The notes under the pieces were generated by a model that worked only from the letters and a program-made list of their open reading frames with translations, ran no database searches and had not been told where the DNA came from. A program made the position numbers and the translations under genes. A DNA stretch of 39,368 nucleotides from Actinomycetes bacterium (GTDB taxonomy: Bacteria > Actinomycetota > Acidimicrobiia > Acidimicrobiales > GCA-2861595): contig JAHFUS010000039.1 in the NCBI GenBank assembly GCA_023264975.1, forward strand, positions 1-39,368, given 5' to 3'. This document shows positions 4,040 to 17,616 of the stretch, in pieces. Each line of letters begins with the position of its first letter. Within the stretch, counting starts at the first letter, position 1.

Positions 4040-4182
4040 CGTCGAACCGGCCCATGGGCCCGCCCGAACGCGCCGGCGTCGCCCAAATCGTCCCCTTCGC
4101 GTGCGCCCCCGCAGGTCAGACGACCAGAAGAGTCGAATATTCCGAGGTTCGCACGCGTCTCTCTAGGGCAAAGGTCGAATGA
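4036..4182 (+). CDS. Possible 48-aa bridging ORF upstream of the ECF sigma gene
   Basis: A 48-codon frame starting MTSNRPMGPPERAGVAQ, joined by ATGA overlaps to the membrane protein upstream and to the sigma factor downstream. I recognise no domain. The second half uses codons that are rare in this genome (AGA AGA, TAT, TCT, AGG). So it could be a real small protein, a leader whose translation is coupled to sigma synthesis, or simply intergenic DNA carrying the AAAGG ribosome-binding site of the sigma gene. The double overlap is the only positive evidence. Confidence 0.35.
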   Translation: MTSNRPMGPPERAGVAQIVPFACAPAGQTTRRVEYSEVRTRLSRAKVE

Positions 4183-4661
4183 CCTCGTTCGAGGACTTCC
4201 ACCGATCGAAGGCCAAGCATGCCCTCCACTATGCGCGCGCGATCCTTGGCGCGGACTCCGCTGAGGACGTCTGCCAAGAGGCTTGGTTCAAAGCCTGGCG
4301 CGCCTGGGGTTCCGCCGATCCCGCCAAGCTGGACACATGGCTCCTGGCCATCGTCCGCAACTGCTGCTTCGAACGGCTCCGCTCCAACCGGCCCGTCGCC
4401 GTCCTCGCCGAGGACGACGCCTCGCCCGTCCCCCCGCCCGACGAGGTCGTCGTCGCTGCCATGGAGATGGCAGCCGCATGGGTCCTCCTCCAGCGTCTCT
4501 CCCCACCCCTTCGTGAGGCCCTCTGGCTGCGTGAGGTCATGGACCTCTCGTACGCCGAGATCGCCGAGGTCCAGCACGTGCCGCAGGGCACGGTGATGTC
4601 GCGCCTGTACGCAGCCCGCCGCAAGGCGAGCCGGCTGCTCGCATCGAGGCGTTTGACGTGA
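4179..4661 (+). CDS. ECF-type RNA polymerase sigma factor
   Basis: A 160-residue sigma-70 factor with only regions 2 and 4. Region 2 spans about 10-70 (YARAILGADSAEDVCQEAWF, then LDTWLLAIVRNCCFERLRS). Region 4 spans about 103-155: LSPPLREALWLREVMDLSYA, followed by the helix-turn-helix EIAEVQHVPQGTVMSRLYAA. It would direct RNA polymerase to a small regulon. AAAGG lies upstream of the ATG. Its stop overlaps the start of the downstream anti-sigma fusion by 4 nt, the usual coupling for ECF/anti-sigma pairs, so it is almost certainly held inactive by that protein. Confidence 0.93.
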   Translation: MTSFEDFHRSKAKHALHYARAILGADSAEDVCQEAWFKAWRAWGSADPAKLDTWLLAIVRNCCFERLRSNRPVAVLAEDDASPVPPPDEVVVAAMEMAAAWVLLQRLSPPLREALWLREVMDLSYAEIAEVQHVPQGTVMSRLYAARRKASRLLASRRLT

Positions 4662-6085
4662 TGTTCCGCGCCCACCCAGGCAAGCTGGCGTTGGGGGCGT
4701 GGTTCGACGGCGAAGGACCAGATCGCGTCGGCGCCCATGTCCTGCGCTGCTCCCGCTGCCAGCGCCACGTGTCCGAGCTGTCCCGCCTCCGGTCATGGCT
4801 GCGCACCCAGCCGTTCGTCGCCATGGGCGAGGACAATCGGGTCCGCGAGGCGGCACCACCGGCGCACGGCAAGAAGCCGATCGTCGTCCTCGCCGCTCTG
4901 CTCGCGGCGTTCCTGGTCGTGGCCGACAAGGCCGACGTGCCGCGCCAGCTCACCGCTTCGGCCCCGAGGGCCACGACCACGACGGCCGCCGCCGCGGCTG
5001 CCGCCGGCGCCGAGGAGCCGCCGACCACCGTCGCCGCCGAGGCGCCCGCCGCCGAGCCCGAAGCGGCTCCGGCGGCCGACCACGCGCCCCGCCTCCAGCC
5101 GTCCACGTCCGACGCCGGCACGGTGTCCCAGCAGGCACTGGCCCGGGCCCGTCAACCCAGTGCCACCCAGCCGCTGCGCCTGGGCGTGATCGTGCCCACC
5201 CGCGGCACCTCGGCCGCCGAGGGCACCGAGGTGGCCGAGGTCGTTCGACAGCGGGTCGCCGCAGCCAACGCGGCCGGTGGCGTCGCGGGCGTACCCGTGG
5301 AGCTCGGGGTGGCCGCCGCCGAGGACGCCGCCGCTGTCGCCGCGCTTGTCAGCCGGGCCACCGTCCTGGTCGGCGGGTTCGGCGCCGAGGCCCCCCAGGG
5401 CATCCCGTGGCTGCTCCCAGCCGACCCGGCCATCGCCGGCGACAGCGTCATCCCGGCAGAGTCGCCCGCCCGATCGGCCGGCATCCAGCTCGCCTCCCTC
5501 CTGCGCAAGCAGGGACTCACCGGCACCATCGGAGTGATCGTCGGACCCGGGCCCGACGCCGCCCTGGCCGGCGGCCTGGCCGCGAAGGCCAGCACGACCA
5601 CGGTCAACGCCCAGGAGTCGGGCAACTGCGACCGGGAGGTCGCCACGCTGGCCCGCTCGGGGGTCGTCGCCCTGGCCATCGCCGGCAGTCCCGATCTCGC
5701 CGCCAAGTGCATGCGGGCCGCATTCCGTGCCCTCTGGCGCCCCATCTTCGGCACCGTGCTCGCCCCCTCGGCGGCGTACGCCGGCCTCCAGTCCATGCCC
5801 GAGGCCATCGGCGCCCGCACCGTGCTGGGCCTGCCGTGGCCCACGTCGGCCGCCCCCGGCGCGGCCCGCTTCCGGTCCACCACCGAATCGCTGTCGTACC
5901 GGGCGCTCGTGTCCTACGCCGCCACCGAGCTGGCGATCGATGTGGCCCGCCGCCAGGGCGGGGTGTCGCTTGAGTCGGTCGAGGCGGGCATCTGGCGCAA
6001 CGACCTCATCGACCTCACCGGCCTCACAAGCCGGGCCAACACCCTCGTGGTGGCCTTCCTCGGGACGTGGTTGATCGCCGGCTAG
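4658..6085 (+). CDS. Predicted ligand-sensing transmembrane anti-sigma factor (zinc finger + periplasmic-binding domain)
   Basis: A 475-residue protein in three parts. Residues 1-60 are a short anti-sigma zinc-finger-like domain with H27-x3-C31-x2-C34 (HVLRCSRC), plus H6 as a possible further ligand. Residues 75-89 (IVVLAALLAAFLVVA) form one short membrane segment. A low-complexity Ala/Thr/Pro linker (about 95-168) leads to residues about 170-475, which resemble type I periplasmic binding proteins of the Leu/Ile/Val receptor family: LRLGVIVPTRGTSAAEGTEV, then NAAGGVAGVPVEL, close to the family's NaaGGvnGrpi signature. Inference: ligand binding outside controls release of the ECF sigma factor inside. 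Start GTG 4658 or ATG 4661. Its stop overlaps the convergent TetR stop. Confidence 0.8.
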   Translation: MMFRAHPGKLALGAWFDGEGPDRVGAHVLRCSRCQRHVSELSRLRSWLRTQPFVAMGEDNRVREAAPPAHGKKPIVVLAALLAAFLVVADKADVPRQLTASAPRATTTTAAAAAAAGAEEPPTTVAAEAPAAEPEAAPAADHAPRLQPSTSDAGTVSQQALARARQPSATQPLRLGVIVPTRGTSAAEGTEVAEVVRQRVAAANAAGGVAGVPVELGVAAAEDAAAVAALVSRATVLVGGFGAEAPQGIPWLLPADPAIAGDSVIPAESPARSAGIQLASLLRKQGLTGTIGVIVGPGPDAALAGGLAAKASTTTVNAQESGNCDREVATLARSGVVALAIAGSPDLAAKCMRAAFRALWRPIFGTVLAPSAAYAGLQSMPEAIGARTVLGLPWPTSAAPGAARFRSTTESLSYRALVSYAATELAIDVARRQGGVSLESVEAGIWRNDLIDLTGLTSRANTLVVAFLGTWLIAG

Positions 6086-6717
6086 AAGGGGGCTCGCCGA
6101 GGAAGCTCCGCTTCCGAGTGCGAAACGAGGGCCGAGCGGAGGAACAGGAGCAGCTGGTTGCGGCGTCGGACGAGGTCCCGGGCGGTTGGTTGAAAGCCCA
6201 GGGCGAGGAGCACCTCGACCTCCGTCGCCATCCCCAGCACGGCCGAGTAGGCGGCGAGGAGCACCATGCGGGGGTCCTGGGCCCGCATGTGGCCGGCCTC
6301 CATCTCGCACCGCAGGAACCCGGTGGCACGGCCCATGAGGGGCTCGATGGCGGCCAGCAGGCGGGTGGCCGCAGGGGGGCCGAGGCGGCTGGCCTCCCGC
6401 ACCACGCCCAGCAGCTCGGGCCGGCGTACCGAGACCCGGAAGATCGACTTCACGATCGCCTCGACCCGGTCCCAGCCCTGGCCGGCGCCCGACAGGGCCC
6501 GCTCCAGCGTGGCCTCGAGCTCGCCCGCAGTGCGGTCGATCACCGCCTCCAGCAGAGCGTCCTTGGACGGGTACCAGTAGAGGATGGTCTGCTTGCGCAG
6601 GCCCAGCCCCTTGGCCAGGGCGTCGAGCGAGGTGGCCTCGTAGCCCCTGGTGCCGAACGACTCGACGGCGGCGAGGAGCACCCGCTCCCCCGTCGTCGCC
6701 GTCGTGAGCGTGGCCAT
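6082..6717 (-). CDS. TetR/AcrR-family transcriptional repressor
   Basis: A 211-residue TetR protein. The N-terminal helix-turn-helix (residues about 5-55) reads ERVLLAAVESFGTRGYEATS, then LDALAKGLGLRKQTILYWYP, with the typical 'G..tsl..iA...G.....lY.yF' pattern. The rest is a helical ligand-binding domain. The ATG at 6717 is chosen because the DNA-binding domain begins right after it; an upstream GTG at 6756 would place the start inside the operator. It is divergent from the acyl-reductase/HAD gene, with an 18-nt perfect palindrome between them. That is the standard layout for a repressor controlling itself and the divergent operon, probably in response to an acyl-CoA or lipid intermediate (inference). 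Confidence 0.92.
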   Translation of the reverse strand: MATLTTATTGERVLLAAVESFGTRGYEATSLDALAKGLGLRKQTILYWYPSKDALLEAVIDRTAGELEATLERALSGAGQGWDRVEAIVKSIFRVSVRRPELLGVVREASRLGPPAATRLLAAIEPLMGRATGFLRCEMEAGHMRAQDPRMVLLAAYSAVLGMATEVEVLLALGFQPTARDLVRRRNQLLLFLRSALVSHSEAELPRRAPF

Positions 6718-6747
6718 CCAGCATGGTAGATCTGGCGTGGTGGCCTC

Positions 6748-6765
6748 GTCTACCAAGTGGTAGAC
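6748..6765. promoter_or_regulatory. Palindromic operator, probable TetR binding site
   Basis: GTCTACCAAGTGGTAGAC is a perfect 8-bp inverted repeat with a 2-bp centre. It lies in the 57-bp gap between the divergent TetR and acyl-reductase genes and ends 9 nt before the ATG at 6775, just ahead of an AGGGG ribosome-binding site. A further half-site, ATGGTAGA, lies at 6723-6730. Size and symmetry fit a TetR dimer site. Confidence 0.75.
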
Positions 6766-6774
6766 AGGGGCCCG

Positions 6775-9177
6775 ATGATCACCAGCGCACTGGAGGGCAA
6801 GCGCATAGGCGTCACCGGGGCCACCGGCTTTCTGGGTACCGCCCTAGTTGAGCGCCTGCTGCGGGTCGTGCCCGGCTGCGAGGTCGTGGTGGTGGTGCGG
6901 GCGGGCAGGCGCACGCCCGCCGCCCAGCGCGTTAAGCGGGAGATCCTGCGCAACGACTGCTTCGACCGCCTGCGCCAGCAGTGGGGCACGGGCTTCGACG
7001 CCGAGATGGACCGCCGCCTCAAGACGGTCGCAGGCGATGTGTCGACCGAGGGCCTCGGCCTCGACGACGAGGACCGGGCCCTGTTCCGCTCGTGCGACAT
7101 CGTCGTGCACTCAGCCGCCTCGGTGAGCTTCGACTCGCCCCTCGACGCCGCCGTCGAGGTCAACCTGCTGGGCGGTAGCCGCGTGGCCGAGGTGCTGGGC
7201 GACGACCGTGCGCCCGGTGACCCGGTCCCCTACCTGGTGGCCGTGTCCACCGCCTACGTGGCGGGCACCCGCCGGGGCGAGTCCCCCGAGGCCCTGCTGC
7301 CCGACACACCGTTCGCCATCGACCTCGACTGGCAGGCCGAGGTTCACGCCGCCCGCCAGGCCCGCTCCGACGCCGAGGCCGAGAGCCGCCGGCCGGAACG
7401 GTTGACCCTGTTCGCCAAGGCGGCCCGCAGCGAGCTCGGAGCGGCCGGCGCCCCCCTGCTTGCCGACAAGCTGGAGAAGCTGCGCACCGAGTGGGTCCGC
7501 GAGCGCATGGTGCAGGCGGGCAAGTCCCGGGCCCACTCCCTCGGCTGGCCCGACGCCTACGCCTACACCAAGGCCCTGGGCGAGCGGGCCCTCCTGGCCA
7601 ACCGGGGCGACGTGCCCGTGTCCTTCGTACGCCCGTCGATCATCGAGTCCGCCCTGGCCGAGCCGAAGCCGGGCTGGATCCGCGGCTTCCGCATGGCCGA
7701 GCCCGTGATCATCAGCTACGGCCGGGGGCTGCTCAAGCAGTTCCCCGGCATCCCCGAGGGCGTGGTCGACGTGATCCCCGTCGACATGGTGGTGGCCGCC
7801 ATCATCGCCGTGGCCGCCCGTGGCCCACTTCCGGAAGGGCCCGACGTGGTGCAGGTGGCTTCGGGTCAACGAAACCCGCTGCGGTACAGGCGGCTGGTGA
7901 AGCTGGTGCAGACGTGGTTCGAGGAGCACCCGCTCTACGACACCGACGGACAGCCCATCGTCGTGCCGGAGTGGTCGTTCCCCGGCCGGGGCCGGGTGCA
8001 GCGCCAGCTCCAGCGGGCCACCACCGCCCTGTCCACCGCCGAGAAGGTCATCACCACCCTCCCCATCCGGGGCAAAAAGGCGCAGCTGTCGTCCCGCATC
8101 GAGGAGAAGCGCGAGCTCGCCGAACGGGCCCTCGGCTACGTGGAGCTGTACGGCGCCTACGCCGAGACCGAGGCCGTTTTCAAGATCGACCGCCTCCTCG
8201 CCCTGTTCGGGTCGCTCGACGACGCCGACAAGGCCACCTTCGCCTTCGACCCGATCGCCATCGACTGGGCCTACTTCGTGCAGGAGGTGCACCTCCCGTC
8301 GATCGTGGCCCAGGCGCGGGTCCGCACCACGCCGGGCAAGCGCAAGACAGCGTCGCGCTCCGACCGGGGCCGCAAGGCGGTGCTGTCCCCCGACCGCCAC
8401 ATCGCCGCCTTCGACCTGGAGAACACGCTCATCGCCTCCAACGTCGTGGAGAGCTACTCGTGGCTGGCCACCCGCCACCTCCCGGCCGACGAGCGGGTCC
8501 GCTTCGTGCTGCGCACCCTCCGGGAGGCGCCTACCCTCCTCGCCCTCGACCGCCGCGACCGCGGCGACTTCCTGCGCCACTTCTACCGCCGCTACGAGGG
8601 CGCCTCCCGCCAGCAGGTGGGCGACGACGCCTGGAACATGTTCTCCGACCTCATCCTGCGCAAGGCCTTCCCGGCCGGCATCCGCAGGGTGCGCGAGCAC
8701 CGCGCCCTCGGCCACCGCACGCTGCTCATCACCGGCGCACTCGACTTCGCCATCGAGCCCCTGCGCCCCCTGTTCGACGACATCGTGTGCGCCAAGCTGG
8801 GCACCGATTCCGACGGGCGGCTGACCGGCGAGCTGCTGACCGGCCCCCCCACCGGCGAGGCCCGCGCCCTGGTGATGGCCCGCTACGCCGAGGCCGAGGG
8901 GCTGTCGCTCACCGAGTCGGTGGCCTACGCCGACTCCGCGTCCGACCTGCCGATGCTGGAGGCGGTGGGCCATCCGGTCGCCGTCAACCCCGAAGCAAAG
9001 CTGGCCACCATCGCCCGCAAGCGGGGCTGGCACGTCGAGCAGTGGTCCAAGGCGCCCGGCGCCCCCCGCCCCCTGCTCCCCATCGGCCCCCTCCTCCACG
9101 TCCCCCGGGGCCGGTCCCGAGTAAATAACCACCGGAATCCGGTGGCTATTTCCTCGAAAGGTGGGGAGACAGGGTGA
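6775..9177 (+). CDS. Fatty acyl-CoA reductase-like SDR fused to a HAD-IB phosphatase-like domain
   Basis: An 800-residue two-domain protein. The N-terminal half resembles the 'male sterility'/fatty acyl-CoA reductase family (NAD_binding_4): GATGFLG cofactor loop at residues 15-21, VSTAYVAG, and catalytic YxxxK at Y262-K266 (YAYTK). Such enzymes reduce acyl thioesters to aldehydes or alcohols with NAD(P)H. From about residue 540 there is a HAD-IB domain: motif I is FDLENTL (nucleophile D547, but Glu at 549 where phosphatases have Asp), motif II is LLITGA, and motif IV is YADSASDLPML. In mycobacteria HAD-IB domains are found fused to PlsC, and a PlsC gene ends this cluster. ATG 6775 follows AGGGG. 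The last ~20 residues are encoded by a palindromic repeat. Confidence 0.85.
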   Translation: MITSALEGKRIGVTGATGFLGTALVERLLRVVPGCEVVVVVRAGRRTPAAQRVKREILRNDCFDRLRQQWGTGFDAEMDRRLKTVAGDVSTEGLGLDDEDRALFRSCDIVVHSAASVSFDSPLDAAVEVNLLGGSRVAEVLGDDRAPGDPVPYLVAVSTAYVAGTRRGESPEALLPDTPFAIDLDWQAEVHAARQARSDAEAESRRPERLTLFAKAARSELGAAGAPLLADKLEKLRTEWVRERMVQAGKSRAHSLGWPDAYAYTKALGERALLANRGDVPVSFVRPSIIESALAEPKPGWIRGFRMAEPVIISYGRGLLKQFPGIPEGVVDVIPVDMVVAAIIAVAARGPLPEGPDVVQVASGQRNPLRYRRLVKLVQTWFEEHPLYDTDGQPIVVPEWSFPGRGRVQRQLQRATTALSTAEKVITTLPIRGKKAQLSSRIEEKRELAERALGYVELYGAYAETEAVFKIDRLLALFGSLDDADKATFAFDPIAIDWAYFVQEVHLPSIVAQARVRTTPGKRKTASRSDRGRKAVLSPDRHIAAFDLENTLIASNVVESYSWLATRHLPADERVRFVLRTLREAPTLLALDRRDRGDFLRHFYRRYEGASRQQVGDDAWNMFSDLILRKAFPAGIRRVREHRALGHRTLLITGALDFAIEPLRPLFDDIVCAKLGTDSDGRLTGELLTGPPTGEARALVMARYAEAEGLSLTESVAYADSASDLPMLEAVGHPVAVNPEAKLATIARKRGWHVEQWSKAPGAPRPLLPIGPLLHVPRGRSRVNNHRNPVAISSKGGETG
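9118..9156. repeat. 39-nt palindromic repeat, variant core
   Basis: Third, divergent member of the 39-nt hairpin family seen at 11976 and 17578. It has the same length, the same left end (TCCCGAGTAAATA) and nearly the same right end (TATTTCCTCGAAAG), but a different core in which both arms have changed together (ACCACCGG with CCGGTGG, loop AAT). Two of 18 pairs do not match on this strand. It lies within the last codons of the acyl-reductase/HAD gene, just before the dehydrogenase start. Confidence 0.8.
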
Positions 9178-10334
9178 AGGCGCTCGTATACGAGCGGTCG
9201 ATCCCGAAGTTCGCGGCGGCGCGGGTGGCCAGCGCCCTCGGTGGCGCCGGCAGCCGGGTGGGGCCGCTGCACCTGACCGACGTGGACGAGCCCGCCCTGC
9301 CCGGCCCCGGGTGGCACCGGGTGCGACCGCGCCTGGCCGGCATCTGCGGATCGGACCTGGCCACGGTGGACGCCAAAAGCAGCCGGTGGTTCGAGGGCGT
9401 GGTGAGCTTCCCGTTCGTGCCCGGCCACGAGGTGGTGGGCGACCTCGACGACGGCACCCGCGTCGTCCTCGAACCGGTGCTGGCATGCGCGGCGCGGGGC
9501 ATCGACCCACCGTGCGACGCCTGTGCGGCCGGCGACAACGGCAACTGCGAGCGCATCTCGTTCGGGTGCCTGGAACCCGGGCTACAGACCGGCTACTGCG
9601 CCGACACGGGCGGCGGCTGGTCGCACGCCCTGGTGGCCCACGACAGCCAGCTGCACACGGTGCCCGACGCCATGAGCGATGAGGCGGCGGTCATGGTCGA
9701 ACCTGCAGCCTGTGCCACCCACGCCGTCCAGTCATCGGCCATCCCCGAGGGGGCGGTGGTGGCCGTGCTGGGCGCCGGCACCCTCGGCCTGTGCTCCATC
9801 GCCGCCCTGCGCCGGCTGGCCCTGCCGGGCACGGTGATCGCCGGCGCCAAGCACGACGTGCAGCGGCGGCTGGCCGCCGACCTGGGGGCCGACGTGGTGG
9901 TGGCGCCGGGCGAGATGGCGCGGGCCGTACGCCGCCAGACCCGCTCGCTGTCGGTCGACGGCCGCCTCACCGGCGGGGCCGACGTGGTGGTGGACTGCGT
10001 CGGGTCGGCCGACTCGCTGGAGCAGGCACTGGCCGTCGTCCGCCCCAAGGGCACCATCGTGCTGGTCGGCATGCCCGGCAGCGTGCGGGTCGACCTCACG
10101 CCGCTGTGGCAGCGGGAGATCCGCCTGGTGGGCTCCTACGCCTACCGTCACACCACCTTCGCCACCGCCTTCGAGCTGGTGGCCGAGTCCCGCCTCGAAC
10201 GCCTGGTGTCCGCCCTGTACCCGCTGGAGCGCTGGCGGGAGGCCCTCGACCACGCCGCCGCGTCCGGCCGGCGTGGGGCCGTCAAGATCGCCTTCGACCT
10301 CCGGTCGACCAAGAAGAGGTCAGCGAAGCCATGA
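9174..10334 (+). CDS. Zinc-dependent medium-chain alcohol dehydrogenase
   Basis: A 386-residue MDR-family dehydrogenase. Catalytic zinc ligands are visible in GICGSDL (Cys) and GHEVVG (His, Glu), with EPAAC further on. The structural-zinc cysteines lie in ACAARGIDPPCDACAAGDNG plus the following Cys (C-x2-C-x7-C). The Rossmann loop VLGAGTLGLCS binds NAD(P). It oxidises an alcohol or reduces an aldehyde; the substrate is unknown, but context suggests a product or precursor of the upstream acyl reductase or of the LarA-like enzyme. The GTG start overlaps the upstream TGA (GTGA), and its own stop overlaps a 13-codon bridging frame. Confidence 0.92.
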   Translation: MKALVYERSIPKFAAARVASALGGAGSRVGPLHLTDVDEPALPGPGWHRVRPRLAGICGSDLATVDAKSSRWFEGVVSFPFVPGHEVVGDLDDGTRVVLEPVLACAARGIDPPCDACAAGDNGNCERISFGCLEPGLQTGYCADTGGGWSHALVAHDSQLHTVPDAMSDEAAVMVEPAACATHAVQSSAIPEGAVVAVLGAGTLGLCSIAALRRLALPGTVIAGAKHDVQRRLAADLGADVVVAPGEMARAVRRQTRSLSVDGRLTGGADVVVDCVGSADSLEQALAVVRPKGTIVLVGMPGSVRVDLTPLWQREIRLVGSYAYRHTTFATAFELVAESRLERLVSALYPLERWREALDHAAASGRRGAVKIAFDLRSTKKRSAKP

Positions 10335-10372
10335 CATTGCGTGAGCGAAACGAACGAATGAGGTCGAAATAA
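10331..10372 (+). other. 13-codon micro-ORF or spacer between dehydrogenase and LarA-like gene
   Basis: An open frame MTLRERNERMRSK starts in the dehydrogenase stop (ATGA) and ends in the LarA-like start (TAATG). The DNA is unlike its surroundings in composition and uses rare codons. Part of it (AGG near 10361) can serve as ribosome-binding site for the ATG at 10372. It is more likely a coupling spacer than a functional peptide. Confidence 0.3.
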
Positions 10373-11958
10373 TGCCCCGCCCCGGCTTCGTGCTCGACGT
10401 CGACCGCTCCACCCCACCCACCCTTTTCTGGCACGGCGAGCAATTCCGTACGGAGCGCCTGCCCACGGGCAGCCGCATCATCTACCCGCCCGAGCCGCTG
10501 GCCGCGTTGGAGGACATCGACGGCGCCATCCGCCACGCCCTGCTCAACCCACTGGGCGACAGCCAGCCCCTGCCGTCGCTGCTGACGTCGGGCATGAAAC
10601 TCACCATCTGCTTCGACGACATCTCGCTGCCCCTGCCCCCGATGCAGCGGCCCGACATCCGCCAGCGGGTGATCGAGGCGGTGCTCGACATGGCCGCCGA
10701 CGCCGGCGTGGACGACGTGGTGCTCATCGCCGCCCTTGCTCTCCACCGGCGCATGACCGAGCCCGAACTGCGCCACGCCCTGGGCGACCGGGTGTACGAC
10801 TCGTTCGCCCCGTCGGGCCGCCTCACCCAGCTCGACGCCGAAGACCCCGAGCAGATGCTGCACCTGGGTACCACCGACCAGGGCGAGGACGTGGAGATCT
10901 CCAAGCGGGCCGCCACCAGCGACCTGATCGTGTACGTGAACATCAACCTGGTGGCAATGGACGGCGGCCACAAGAGCGTGGCCACGGGCCTCGCCTCCTA
11001 CCGCTCGCTCAAGCACCACCACAACGTGCGCACGCTCCAGCACAGCCGCTCGCTCATGGACCAGAAGCGCTCCGAGCTGCACACGAGCAACTGGCGCATG
11101 GGCCGCCACATCGCCGCCCAGGGGATCAAGATCTTCCAGATCGAGACCACCATGAACACCAATACCTTCCCCGACCAGTTCTCCTTCCTCATGAAGCGCG
11201 AGTGGGAGTGGACGGCCAGGGACCGCATGTCGTACATGGCCGTCAGCCGGTCGCTCGACCGCACGCCGTCCCGTCTCCGCACCACCATCTTCCAGGGCAT
11301 CAAGTCGCCCCACCAGATGACGTCCGTGCAGGCGGGCGAGGTGGAGGCAGTGCACGAGGTCACCACCGCCAACGTCCACCGCCAGCAGCTGGTGGAGGTC
11401 GAGGGCCAGACCGACATCCTCACCATGGGGCTGCCCTACATCTGCCCCTACAACGTGAATTCGGTGATGAACCCGATCCTGGTGGCGTGCCTCGGCCTCG
11501 GGTACTTCTTCAACCTCTACCGCAACAAGCCGCTCGTGCGGGAGGGTGGCGTGCTGATCATGCACCACCCCACGCCCCGTGCCTTCCACCCCGTGCACCA
11601 CCCGAGCTACATCGACTTCTTCGACCAGGTGCTGGCCCAGACCACCGACCCGCTGGAGATCGAGGCCAAGTTCGAGACGAGCTTCGCCACCGACCCCTGG
11701 TACATTCACCTGTACCGAACGAGCCACGCCTACCACGGTGTCCACCCGTTCTACATGTGGTACTGGTGCGCCCACGCCCTGCAGCACCTGGGCATGGTGA
11801 TCATCGTGGGCGGCGACCCCAAGTCGGTGCGCCGCCTCGGCTTCAAGCCGGCGTCCACCCTGTCGGATGCGTTGGAGATGGCGAGTGACGTCGTCGGCCC
11901 CTCCCCGACGCTCACCCACCTCCACGCCCCGCCCCTGCTCATAGCGGACGTGAAATGA
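10372..11958 (+). CDS. LarA-like (nickel-pincer lactate racemase family) protein
   Basis: A 528-residue protein with the LarA/DUF2088 fold. The N-domain has LTICFDDISLPLPP and IAALALHRRMTEPEL, matching LarA's 'D.tRp.P' and 'alG.HR.mt..El' motifs. MDGGHKSVATGLASYRSLKH matches the segment that holds the cofactor lysine and metal-binding histidine. H125, K201 and H217 have the same spacing (76 and 16) as LarA H108, K184 and H200 of Lactobacillus. The position matching the second catalytic base H174 is Ile191 (neighbours Asn), so two-base racemisation may not operate. The protein is about 100 residues longer than LarA, mostly C-terminal. No larB, larC or larE lies in this window. The substrate is unknown; cluster context suggests a hydroxy-acid or hydroxy-lipid intermediate. 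Confidence 0.8.
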   Translation: MPRPGFVLDVDRSTPPTLFWHGEQFRTERLPTGSRIIYPPEPLAALEDIDGAIRHALLNPLGDSQPLPSLLTSGMKLTICFDDISLPLPPMQRPDIRQRVIEAVLDMAADAGVDDVVLIAALALHRRMTEPELRHALGDRVYDSFAPSGRLTQLDAEDPEQMLHLGTTDQGEDVEISKRAATSDLIVYVNINLVAMDGGHKSVATGLASYRSLKHHHNVRTLQHSRSLMDQKRSELHTSNWRMGRHIAAQGIKIFQIETTMNTNTFPDQFSFLMKREWEWTARDRMSYMAVSRSLDRTPSRLRTTIFQGIKSPHQMTSVQAGEVEAVHEVTTANVHRQQLVEVEGQTDILTMGLPYICPYNVNSVMNPILVACLGLGYFFNLYRNKPLVREGGVLIMHHPTPRAFHPVHHPSYIDFFDQVLAQTTDPLEIEAKFETSFATDPWYIHLYRTSHAYHGVHPFYMWYWCAHALQHLGMVIIVGGDPKSVRRLGFKPASTLSDALEMASDVVGPSPTLTHLHAPPLLIADVK

Positions 11959-11975
11959 CGCCCGCCCCCCGCTTT

Positions 11976-12014
11976 CGAGTAAATAGGGTGTCAAAACGAC
12001 ACCCTATTTACTCG
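11976..12014. repeat. 39-nt palindromic repeat, copy A
   Basis: A perfect 17-bp inverted repeat: CGAGTAAATAGGGTGTC, loop AAAAC, then the exact reverse complement. It lies between the LarA-like stop and the PlsC start. The 39 nt are identical to those at 17578-17616, and the flanks of the two copies match when one is inverted. It is AT-richer than the surroundings and not followed by a T tract. Confidence 0.9.
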
Positions 12015-12022
12015 GGAATGCA

Positions 12023-12931
12023 GTGAGGCTGCGGCCGCGGGCCCGGTTCCCGCTGGGCGCGCCGACGTGGCCGACGGGAGTGCCCCGCCCGCCGGTGGTG
12101 CGCGACACGGGGGTCAACTACGACACGGCGTGGGCGCGGAAGTACCCGGCGCGGCTGGCCCGGGCGCTGTGGCTCGACGGAGTGACGCGGCCGCTGATCA
12201 AGGGGCTGGCGGCACCGGACATCGACGGACTGGACCGCCTCGACGCCCTGCCGGCGCCGGTGATCTTCGCCGCCAACCACTCGAGCCACGTCGACACCCC
12301 ACTCGTGTTGACCTCGCTGCCGGAGCGGTTCCGGCACCGCACGGCGGTGGCGGCCGGCGCCGACTACTTCTTCGACAAGCGGTGGAAGGGCGGGCTGTGG
12401 GCCCTGTCCATCAACGCCATCCCCATCGAACGCACCCGGGTGAGCCCGCAGTCCACCAAGTTGGCGGTGTCGCTCATCCAGGACGGCTGGAGCCTCGTGA
12501 TCTTCCCCGAGGGCGGCCGCAGCCCGGACGGGTGGGGCCAGAGCCACCGGGCGGGCGCCGCCTACCTCGCCGTGCGAACGGGGGCGCCGGTGGTGCCCGT
12601 CCACCTGCACGGCACCCGCCGCATCCTCAAGAAGGGAGGCAAGGGCGTGCGCCCGTCCCACACCGAGGTGACCTTCGGGCGCCCGCTGCGAGCGGCGGAG
12701 GGCGAGAGCGCGGCCGACCTGGCCGTGCGCATCGAGCGGTCCATCGCCGTCCTGGCCGACGAGCGCTCCGAAGGCTTCTGGGACGCACGCCGCAACGCCG
12801 CCGCCGGCGCCACGCCCGCCCTCACCGGCCCCGGGCCCACCGGCTGGCGCCGGGCCTGGGCCCTTGAGGAGAACCGCCGACGGCAGGGCACGTCCAAGCC
12901 CTGGCCCCCCAGGAGCGCAGCGAGGGACTGA
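12023..12931 (+). CDS. PlsC-like 1-acyl-glycerol-3-phosphate acyltransferase family protein
   Basis: A 302-residue acyltransferase of the LPLAT family. Motif I is NHSSHVDT (HX4D catalytic pair, around residues 91-97). PIERTR is motif II and FPEGGRSPDG is motif III, which binds the phosphate or acceptor; VPVHLHGTRR matches motif IV. It transfers an acyl group from acyl-CoA or acyl-ACP to a glycerophosphate-type or other lipid acceptor at the membrane. The N-terminal ~70 residues and the charged tail lie outside the conserved domain. The GTG at 12023 follows hairpin copy A at 8 nt, and no clear Shine-Dalgarno is seen. As last gene of the cluster it suggests a lipid end-product. Confidence 0.88.
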   Translation: MRLRPRARFPLGAPTWPTGVPRPPVVRDTGVNYDTAWARKYPARLARALWLDGVTRPLIKGLAAPDIDGLDRLDALPAPVIFAANHSSHVDTPLVLTSLPERFRHRTAVAAGADYFFDKRWKGGLWALSINAIPIERTRVSPQSTKLAVSLIQDGWSLVIFPEGGRSPDGWGQSHRAGAAYLAVRTGAPVVPVHLHGTRRILKKGGKGVRPSHTEVTFGRPLRAAEGESAADLAVRIERSIAVLADERSEGFWDARRNAAAGATPALTGPGPTGWRRAWALEENRRRQGTSKPWPPRSAARD

Positions 12932-17577: not shown

Positions 17578-17616
17578 CGAGTAAATAGGGTGTCAAAACG
17601 ACACCCTATTTACTCG
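17578..17616. repeat. 39-nt palindromic repeat, copy B
   Basis: Identical over 39 nt to the hairpin at 11976-12014 (CGAGTAAATAGGGTGTC, loop AAAAC, reverse complement). The outer flanks are swapped: ATTCCCGAG is on the left and CTCGAAAGCGGG on the right, the reverse of copy A. It fills the gap between the gltB stop and the aconitase GTG. Confidence 0.9.

Follow-up and report, generated by a model that had tools for sequence, protein, structure and literature searches.

A conserved actinobacterial gene cluster with a LarA-family enzyme: a candidate TetR-regulated operon for ether-type lipids

Bacterial ether lipids blur the 'lipid divide', and one enzyme that leads to this product class, the glycerol ester reductase Ger/PlsA, is known from anaerobically grown hosts. 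To our knowledge, no route to ether lipids has been established in aerobic Actinobacteria such as Rubrobacter. In Myxococcus xanthus, ether lipids are made with the help of the elb operon (ElbB, ElbD and ElbE), which brings together fatty acyl-CoA reductase (FAR), HAD and AGPAT domains (PMC9131029). A partly similar set of functions is encoded at positions 6082-12931 of the DNA stretch analysed here (the window: all 39,368 nucleotides of contig JAHFUS010000039.1, our contig C136, from an Acidimicrobiales genome of 3.78 Mb that is 98% complete), where the gene for a TetR-family regulator diverges from those for a FAR fused to a HAD-IB phosphatase (FAR-HAD), a zinc-dependent MDR dehydrogenase, a homologue of LarA, the lactate-racemase-type enzyme with a nickel-pincer nucleotide (NPN) cofactor, and a PlsC-type acyltransferase. 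This cluster is a conserved operon unit with its own switch across several actinobacterial classes, and it probably represents a so far unrecognised way to ether-type membrane lipids; that it is a TetR-regulated ether-lipid operon with an NPN-dependent step is a reading for which we see the balance as roughly even. The features are as follows.

6082..6717, minus strand: TetR-family regulator, divergent to FAR-HAD (PF00440, 9e-12)
6748..6765, no strand: predicted TetR operator palindrome (script search; core conserved in 50/50 divergent loci)
6775..9177, plus strand: FAR-HAD, consisting of a NAD_binding_4 Rossmann part, a C-terminal Sterile-like part and the fused HAD-IB phosphatase (PF07993, 2.6e-56; PF12710, 1.8e-24)
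9174..10334, plus strand: zinc-dependent MDR dehydrogenase, polyol-dehydrogenase-like (PF00107, 5e-22; PF08240)
10372..11958, plus strand: NPN enzyme of the LarAH14/15/16 family with one catalytic histidine (NF052592, 893.5 bits)
11976..12014, no strand: dispersed palindrome in the gap between the LarA homologue and PlsC (other copies in the window and the genome)
12023..12931, plus strand: PlsC-type lysophospholipid acyltransferase (PF01553, 1.3e-17)

An earlier prediction made from these letters alone (the original prediction) had seen here an unassigned lipid-type cluster of four enzyme genes transcribed in one direction, and that view is borne out by synteny. All five genes lie at the positions then given, and of the stop/start overlaps described, one is real (4 bases, between FAR-HAD and the MDR gene), while gaps of 37 and 64 bases separate MDR from the LarA homologue and the latter from PlsC, respectively. 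When 80 relatives of the LarA homologue were fetched with their surroundings and only loci on long enough contigs were taken as testable, FAR-HAD was found upstream of the LarA homologue in 63/63 loci, MDR directly upstream of it in 73/73 and PlsC immediately behind it in 69/70; in 46 of 59 the set was accompanied by a divergent TetR homologue. The order FAR-HAD, MDR, LarA homologue, PlsC is thus kept far beyond chance. The LarA subfamily is present above cut-off in 86 of 396 sampled Actinomycetota genomes, and loci from about 12 actinobacterial families beyond Acidimicrobiia share the gene order, PlsC being its most variable member; in one locus (L157, in genome G075) MDR is missing from the cluster. 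Of the 148 genomes of the class, 25 encode both FAR-HAD and the LarA homologue, and none encodes just one of them (Fisher 7e-29, kinship being ignored). Twelve genomes of the same order lack both, which argues that the two are gained or lost as one unit. Searched against plasmids, the LarA protein gave no match. Relatives of LarAH14 at 38-42% identity (loci L147-L150) have other neighbours, namely a CoA transferase, a glycyl-radical enzyme and a hydroxyacid dehydrogenase, and the lipid context is therefore specific to LarAH14 itself. In nearly all related genomes the four genes are neighbours, and no close homologue turned up whose characterised function is unrelated; the original prediction thus withstands both conditions that it had named for its own refutation.

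The own switch of the operon comprises the divergent regulator gene and an 18-base palindrome, GTCTACCA-AG-TGGTAGAC, in the TetR/FAR-HAD intergenic region. Its core, TACCANNTGGTA (TACCA-NN-TGGTA), is almost invariant in 50/50 pairs of divergent TetR and FAR genes, and the window has a single copy of it, where 0.00 are expected. It is the clean palindromic operator that the original prediction had noted beside the divergent TetR. The operator sites listed in the fetched loci lie at the FAR-HAD start or the TetR-FAR-HAD promoter, and none among these loci lies near larBC or an AGPS-like gene (see below). Judged by this conservation, the palindrome is taken as a real operator, with GTCTACCAAGTGGTAGAC as the putative TetR-binding stretch at the FAR-HAD promoter, and the cluster as having a dedicated regulator. 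The TetR open reading frame reaches back to a TTG at 6756 and that of FAR-HAD opens at a GTG at 6757; the true starts are likely the ATGs at 6717 and 6775, which would place the palindrome between both genes.

Alignments show the catalytic motifs of FAR-HAD, MDR and PlsC to be intact. FAR-HAD (predicted structure with a pLDDT of 86) matches the fatty acyl-CoA reductase structure 7eoz at 6.6e-62 and the model TIGR01490 with 101.5 bits (cut-off 98.3), and its residues Y268/K272, D553, D726 and D730 are invariant among 30 homologues. In MDR, C58, H85, E86 and E176 are conserved across 123 sequences; its best NCBIfam relatives, scyllo-inosose 3-dehydrogenase and L-idonate 5-dehydrogenase, score far under their cut-offs. 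PlsC retains the motifs NHxSHxD and PEGxR in an alignment of 117 sequences.

The most unexpected member is the LarA homologue, which matches NF052592 (LarAH14/15/16) with 893.5 bits (family cut-off 740). Its residues were mapped onto the Streptococcus enzyme structure 9q2u and followed through 133 aligned sequences. The first catalytic histidine (H125), the NPN-binding lysine (K201) and the nickel-ligating histidine (H217) are present in 133/133, the latter two corresponding to K195 and H211 of 9q2u. The second catalytic histidine (His174 in classical enzymes) is replaced by asparagine, N192, in 132 of the 133, and the position of the classical Arg75, which binds both the NPN phosphate and the substrate carboxylate, is taken by L86 (Leu in 121, Ile in 11 and Cys in 1). 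The predicted model (pLDDT 94.7) is closest to 9q3k (Z 41.3, root-mean-square deviation 2.2, 454 residues aligned) and 9q3j (Z 38.0), which are single-histidine NPN enzymes, one of them solved with covalently bound cofactor. The lack of a second catalytic histidine has been described for LarA groups 14 and 15 (PMC12611868), and a Frankia LarAH14 was inactive in all seven hydroxy-acid reactions assayed (PMC7583248); in the literature we found no measured activity or substrate behind the family's name, hydroxyacid isomerase. Classical racemisation by the LarA homologue therefore looks unlikely from its residues, a simple hydroxy-acid racemase was rejected on the grounds of N192 and L86, and the epimerisation of a hydroxy compound envisaged in the original prediction is weakened. 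On the other hand, because the cofactor residues are intact and the cofactor genes co-occur with it, the enzyme very likely uses NPN. Its own genome encodes larC (C101:45683-46795), larB (C101:46816-47427) and larE (C58:11161-11919, above cut-off); among the 148 genomes of the class, larB and larC are found together in 23/25 with the LarA homologue versus 2/123 without it, and among the 396 Actinomycetota genomes larC is found in 76/86 carriers of the subfamily versus 172/310 others.

What might such an operon produce? Glycerol ether lipids are suggested by three independent lines of evidence. First, a plasmid of Streptomyces (L195, 4101-11295; the record is unannotated) carries a compact gene set in which a FAR-HAD homologue with 37% identity over 94% coverage stands divergent to genes for an SDR, an acyltransferase and alkyl-dihydroxyacetone-phosphate (alkyl-DHAP) synthase (AGPS), the flavoprotein being a clear case of the latter (1.6e-114 to 2uuu versus 5.6e-26 to glycolate oxidase). 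Second, the clusters of family f47, which are Rubrobacter-like, have no PlsC, and the gene for PlsY, which acylates glycerol-3-phosphate, lies directly upstream of FAR-HAD in 3/3 loci. Third, ether core lipids of about 46% are cited for Rubrobacterales in PMC10821996, yet neither the Ger/PlsA domain nor a full-length AGPS was found in the f47 genomes examined. DUF2229, the domain of Ger/PlsA, was found in 0/15 cluster genomes, including four of f47, while 4/14 controls matched, and Ger/PlsA was thus rejected as the ether-forming enzyme; a full-length AGPS was found in none of six Rubrobacter-like genomes, which gave only partial matches of 25-38%. Ether lipids without a Ger domain and without a full-length AGPS call for another route. 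Nor is there an AGPS among the proteins of the cluster described here, and its genome holds just partial matches to clear AGPS. Of the ether, diol or hydroxy-lipid products first considered, the ether has gained independent support, the other two being less likely; the product is most likely an unusual glycerolipid, a 1-O-alkyl (ether) phospholipid.

The best reading of the LarA homologue is then that LarAH14 replaces or supplements AGPS in an aerobic ether-lipid operon. The FAR domain would reduce acyl-CoA or acyl-ACP to the fatty alcohol that serves as donor of the ether chain, and PlsY, where clustered as in Rubrobacter-like genomes, or the general pathway would provide 1-acyl-glycerol-3-phosphate. 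LarAH14 with its NPN cofactor would abstract the C2 hydride from this intermediate, the single histidine acting as base; in the transient 2-ketone the fatty alcohol would displace the C1 acyl group, an exchange that AGPS performs on acyl-DHAP, and the hydride first taken would go back to the same face of C2, such that no second histidine would be needed. MDR would either perform the ketone/alcohol step or feed the redox step, the HAD domain would remove phosphate from an intermediate, and PlsC would finish the lipid by acylation at sn-2. A mechanism of this kind would account for the lone histidine, the lost carboxylate-binding arginine, the nearby glycerol-phosphate acyltransferase and the lack of AGPS. 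An ether route that needs neither AGPS nor Ger, with the ether bond formed or made possible by an NPN enzyme through hidden redox chemistry at C2 of a glycerol-phosphate lipid, is nevertheless put forward tentatively, and the detailed exchange of hydride and acyl group at C2 is the weaker part, which we hold slightly more tentatively still.

Several observations weigh against this picture. The Streptomyces FAR-HAD is just 37% identical and is divergent from the AGPS genes. The f47 genomes are assigned to Rubrobacter only presumptively, one of them being presumably Rubrobacter xylanophilus DSM 9941, just as the carrier G014 is what we take to be Acidimicrobium ferrooxidans DSM 10331. Lipid data for Acidimicrobiia were not found, so that lipids of hosts with the exact cluster are reached through the Rubrobacter literature only. 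An NPN enzyme with a lipid substrate is not known to us, and the hidden-redox step is our proposal. Two cluster genomes, G075 and G087, have no detectable larB/larC; their LarA homologues retain all cofactor residues, and the assemblies may be incomplete. No ACS or ACP domain of the ElbD type (FAR-ACS-ACP-AGPAT) occurs in the five cluster proteins, a result limited to these five, as whole genomes, those of Rubrobacter included, were not searched for ElbD. Finally, an AGPS homologue exists in some cluster genomes (G110, G354 and G079), and LarAH14 therefore need not replace AGPS. The genome of the window itself encodes an AGPS-like flavoprotein (G000:C14:10805-12367). Among solved structures AGPS come closest to it (9e-48, over the FAD domain only), though it does not track the cluster: widespread in Acidimicrobiia, it was not found at E 1e-40 in 7/25 carriers and is present in many non-carriers, and it was dropped as an obligatory partner.

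Could the operon instead make hydroxy- or diol-lipids? In such a scheme a 1,2-diol would arise when FAR reduces a 2-hydroxyacyl thioester with a long chain, MDR and LarAH14 would determine the placement or configuration of the hydroxyl, and PlsC would acylate the product. The polyol dehydrogenases that are the nearest relatives of MDR and the long chain, which suits FAR as well as PlsC, would fit, and alpha-hydroxy acids are substrates of LarA enzymes (PMC7583248). However, LarAH14 has lost the second histidine as well as the arginine that binds the carboxylate in racemases, the Frankia enzyme was inactive in the seven hydroxy-acid reactions, and PlsY beside the cluster in Rubrobacter-like genomes directs attention to glycerol phosphate; we regard this alternative as rather unlikely. 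Somewhat less probable again is an ether-lipid operon whose LarAH14 and MDR would do no more than modify the polar group or the backbone (for instance by converting a glycerate-like or keto intermediate), the ether bond being formed by another, unrecognised enzyme encoded elsewhere. The AGPS-like flavoprotein and the AGPS homologues of the three genomes just named would speak for this, but the former does not follow the cluster and the Rubrobacter-like genomes offer no AGPS candidate. Synthetic or catabolic fatty-alcohol or wax-ester metabolism, for which FAR, an alcohol dehydrogenase-like MDR and PlsC as acyl transfer enzyme would suffice, is improbable, as it leaves the NPN enzyme without a role although within the class LarAH14 always accompanies FAR-HAD, and as the acyltransferase is of the PlsC type (with lysophosphatidate-acyltransferase motifs) or PlsY and not a wax synthase.

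Should the preferred reading be true, with aerobic bacteria making ether lipids from an operon that contains a nickel-cofactor enzyme one would not expect there, possibly by a categorically new mechanism, the use of NPN in lipid synthesis would take this rare cofactor past hydroxy-acid isomerisation, and the LarAH14 group would acquire a physiological context. The hidden-redox route would then represent the first lipid role of NPN and would put the LarA fold to a use other than racemisation, and the cluster could serve as a genetic marker by which ether-lipid producers are recognised among the Actinobacteria abundant in soil and freshwater.

Some further features of these loci deserve mention. 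In two Rubrobacter-like loci a MOSC-domain gene separates MDR from the LarA homologue (L143, 10516-12394; L145, 8355-9047), and in L143 it is joined by a protoglobin gene. The palindrome behind the LarA homologue belongs to a dispersed element, CGAGTAAATAGGGTGTC-loop-GACACCCTATTTACTCG plus a variant, with window copies at 9118-9156, 11976-12014 and 17578-17616 and others on two further contigs of the genome (L085, 2315-2353; L170, 626-664). The copy at 9118 lies within the 3' end of FAR-HAD and gives the protein an extra tail that is predicted to be disordered and is not seen in relatives; the one at 11976-12014 is possibly a processing or termination site, outside the pathway. Upstream of the cluster, at 4179-6085, an ECF-type sigma factor gene overlaps the next gene by 4 bases, and the protein encoded after it weakly matches a periplasmic substrate-binding domain.

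How, then, does this operon compare with known systems? It shares with the elb operon and the AGPS operon MXAN_1676-1674 a FAR1-like reductase, a HAD phosphohydrolase, an AGPAT-type acyltransferase and an NAD(P) dehydrogenase (PMC9131029), but it differs from both in having no ACS, ACP, ElbD-type fusion or AGPS, in the fusion of FAR to HAD, in an MDR that takes the place of the SDR and in the added NPN enzyme. The latter resembles LarAH14/15/16 enzymes in its score above cut-off, NPN lysine, nickel histidine and first catalytic histidine, and a lipid context for that family is not described in the LarA literature examined. Unlike the classical LarA racemase with its two catalytic histidines (His108 and His174) and Arg75, it keeps the first histidine only. 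The LarA enzymes of Blautia wexlerae (9q3j) and Streptococcus plurextorum (9q2u/9q3k) have the closest folds and the same asparagine for the second histidine, but they are just 24-27% identical and a carbohydrate-metabolism context has been suggested for them (PMC12611868). Among the papers searched, none joined nickel-pincer with fatty acyl-CoA reductase, or LarA with ether lipids. Ger/PlsA would yield the same class of product, but its DUF2229 is absent from all 15 cluster genomes tested. Five Rubrobacter species reportedly carry a putative operon that directs the synthesis of 1-O-alkyl glycerol phosphate and resembles that of other aerobic bacteria (Sinninghe Damste et al. 2023), and this operon may be the cluster described here. 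If it is, the ether assignment has a precedent, and what is new here would be the NPN enzyme, the breadth of distribution and the regulator.

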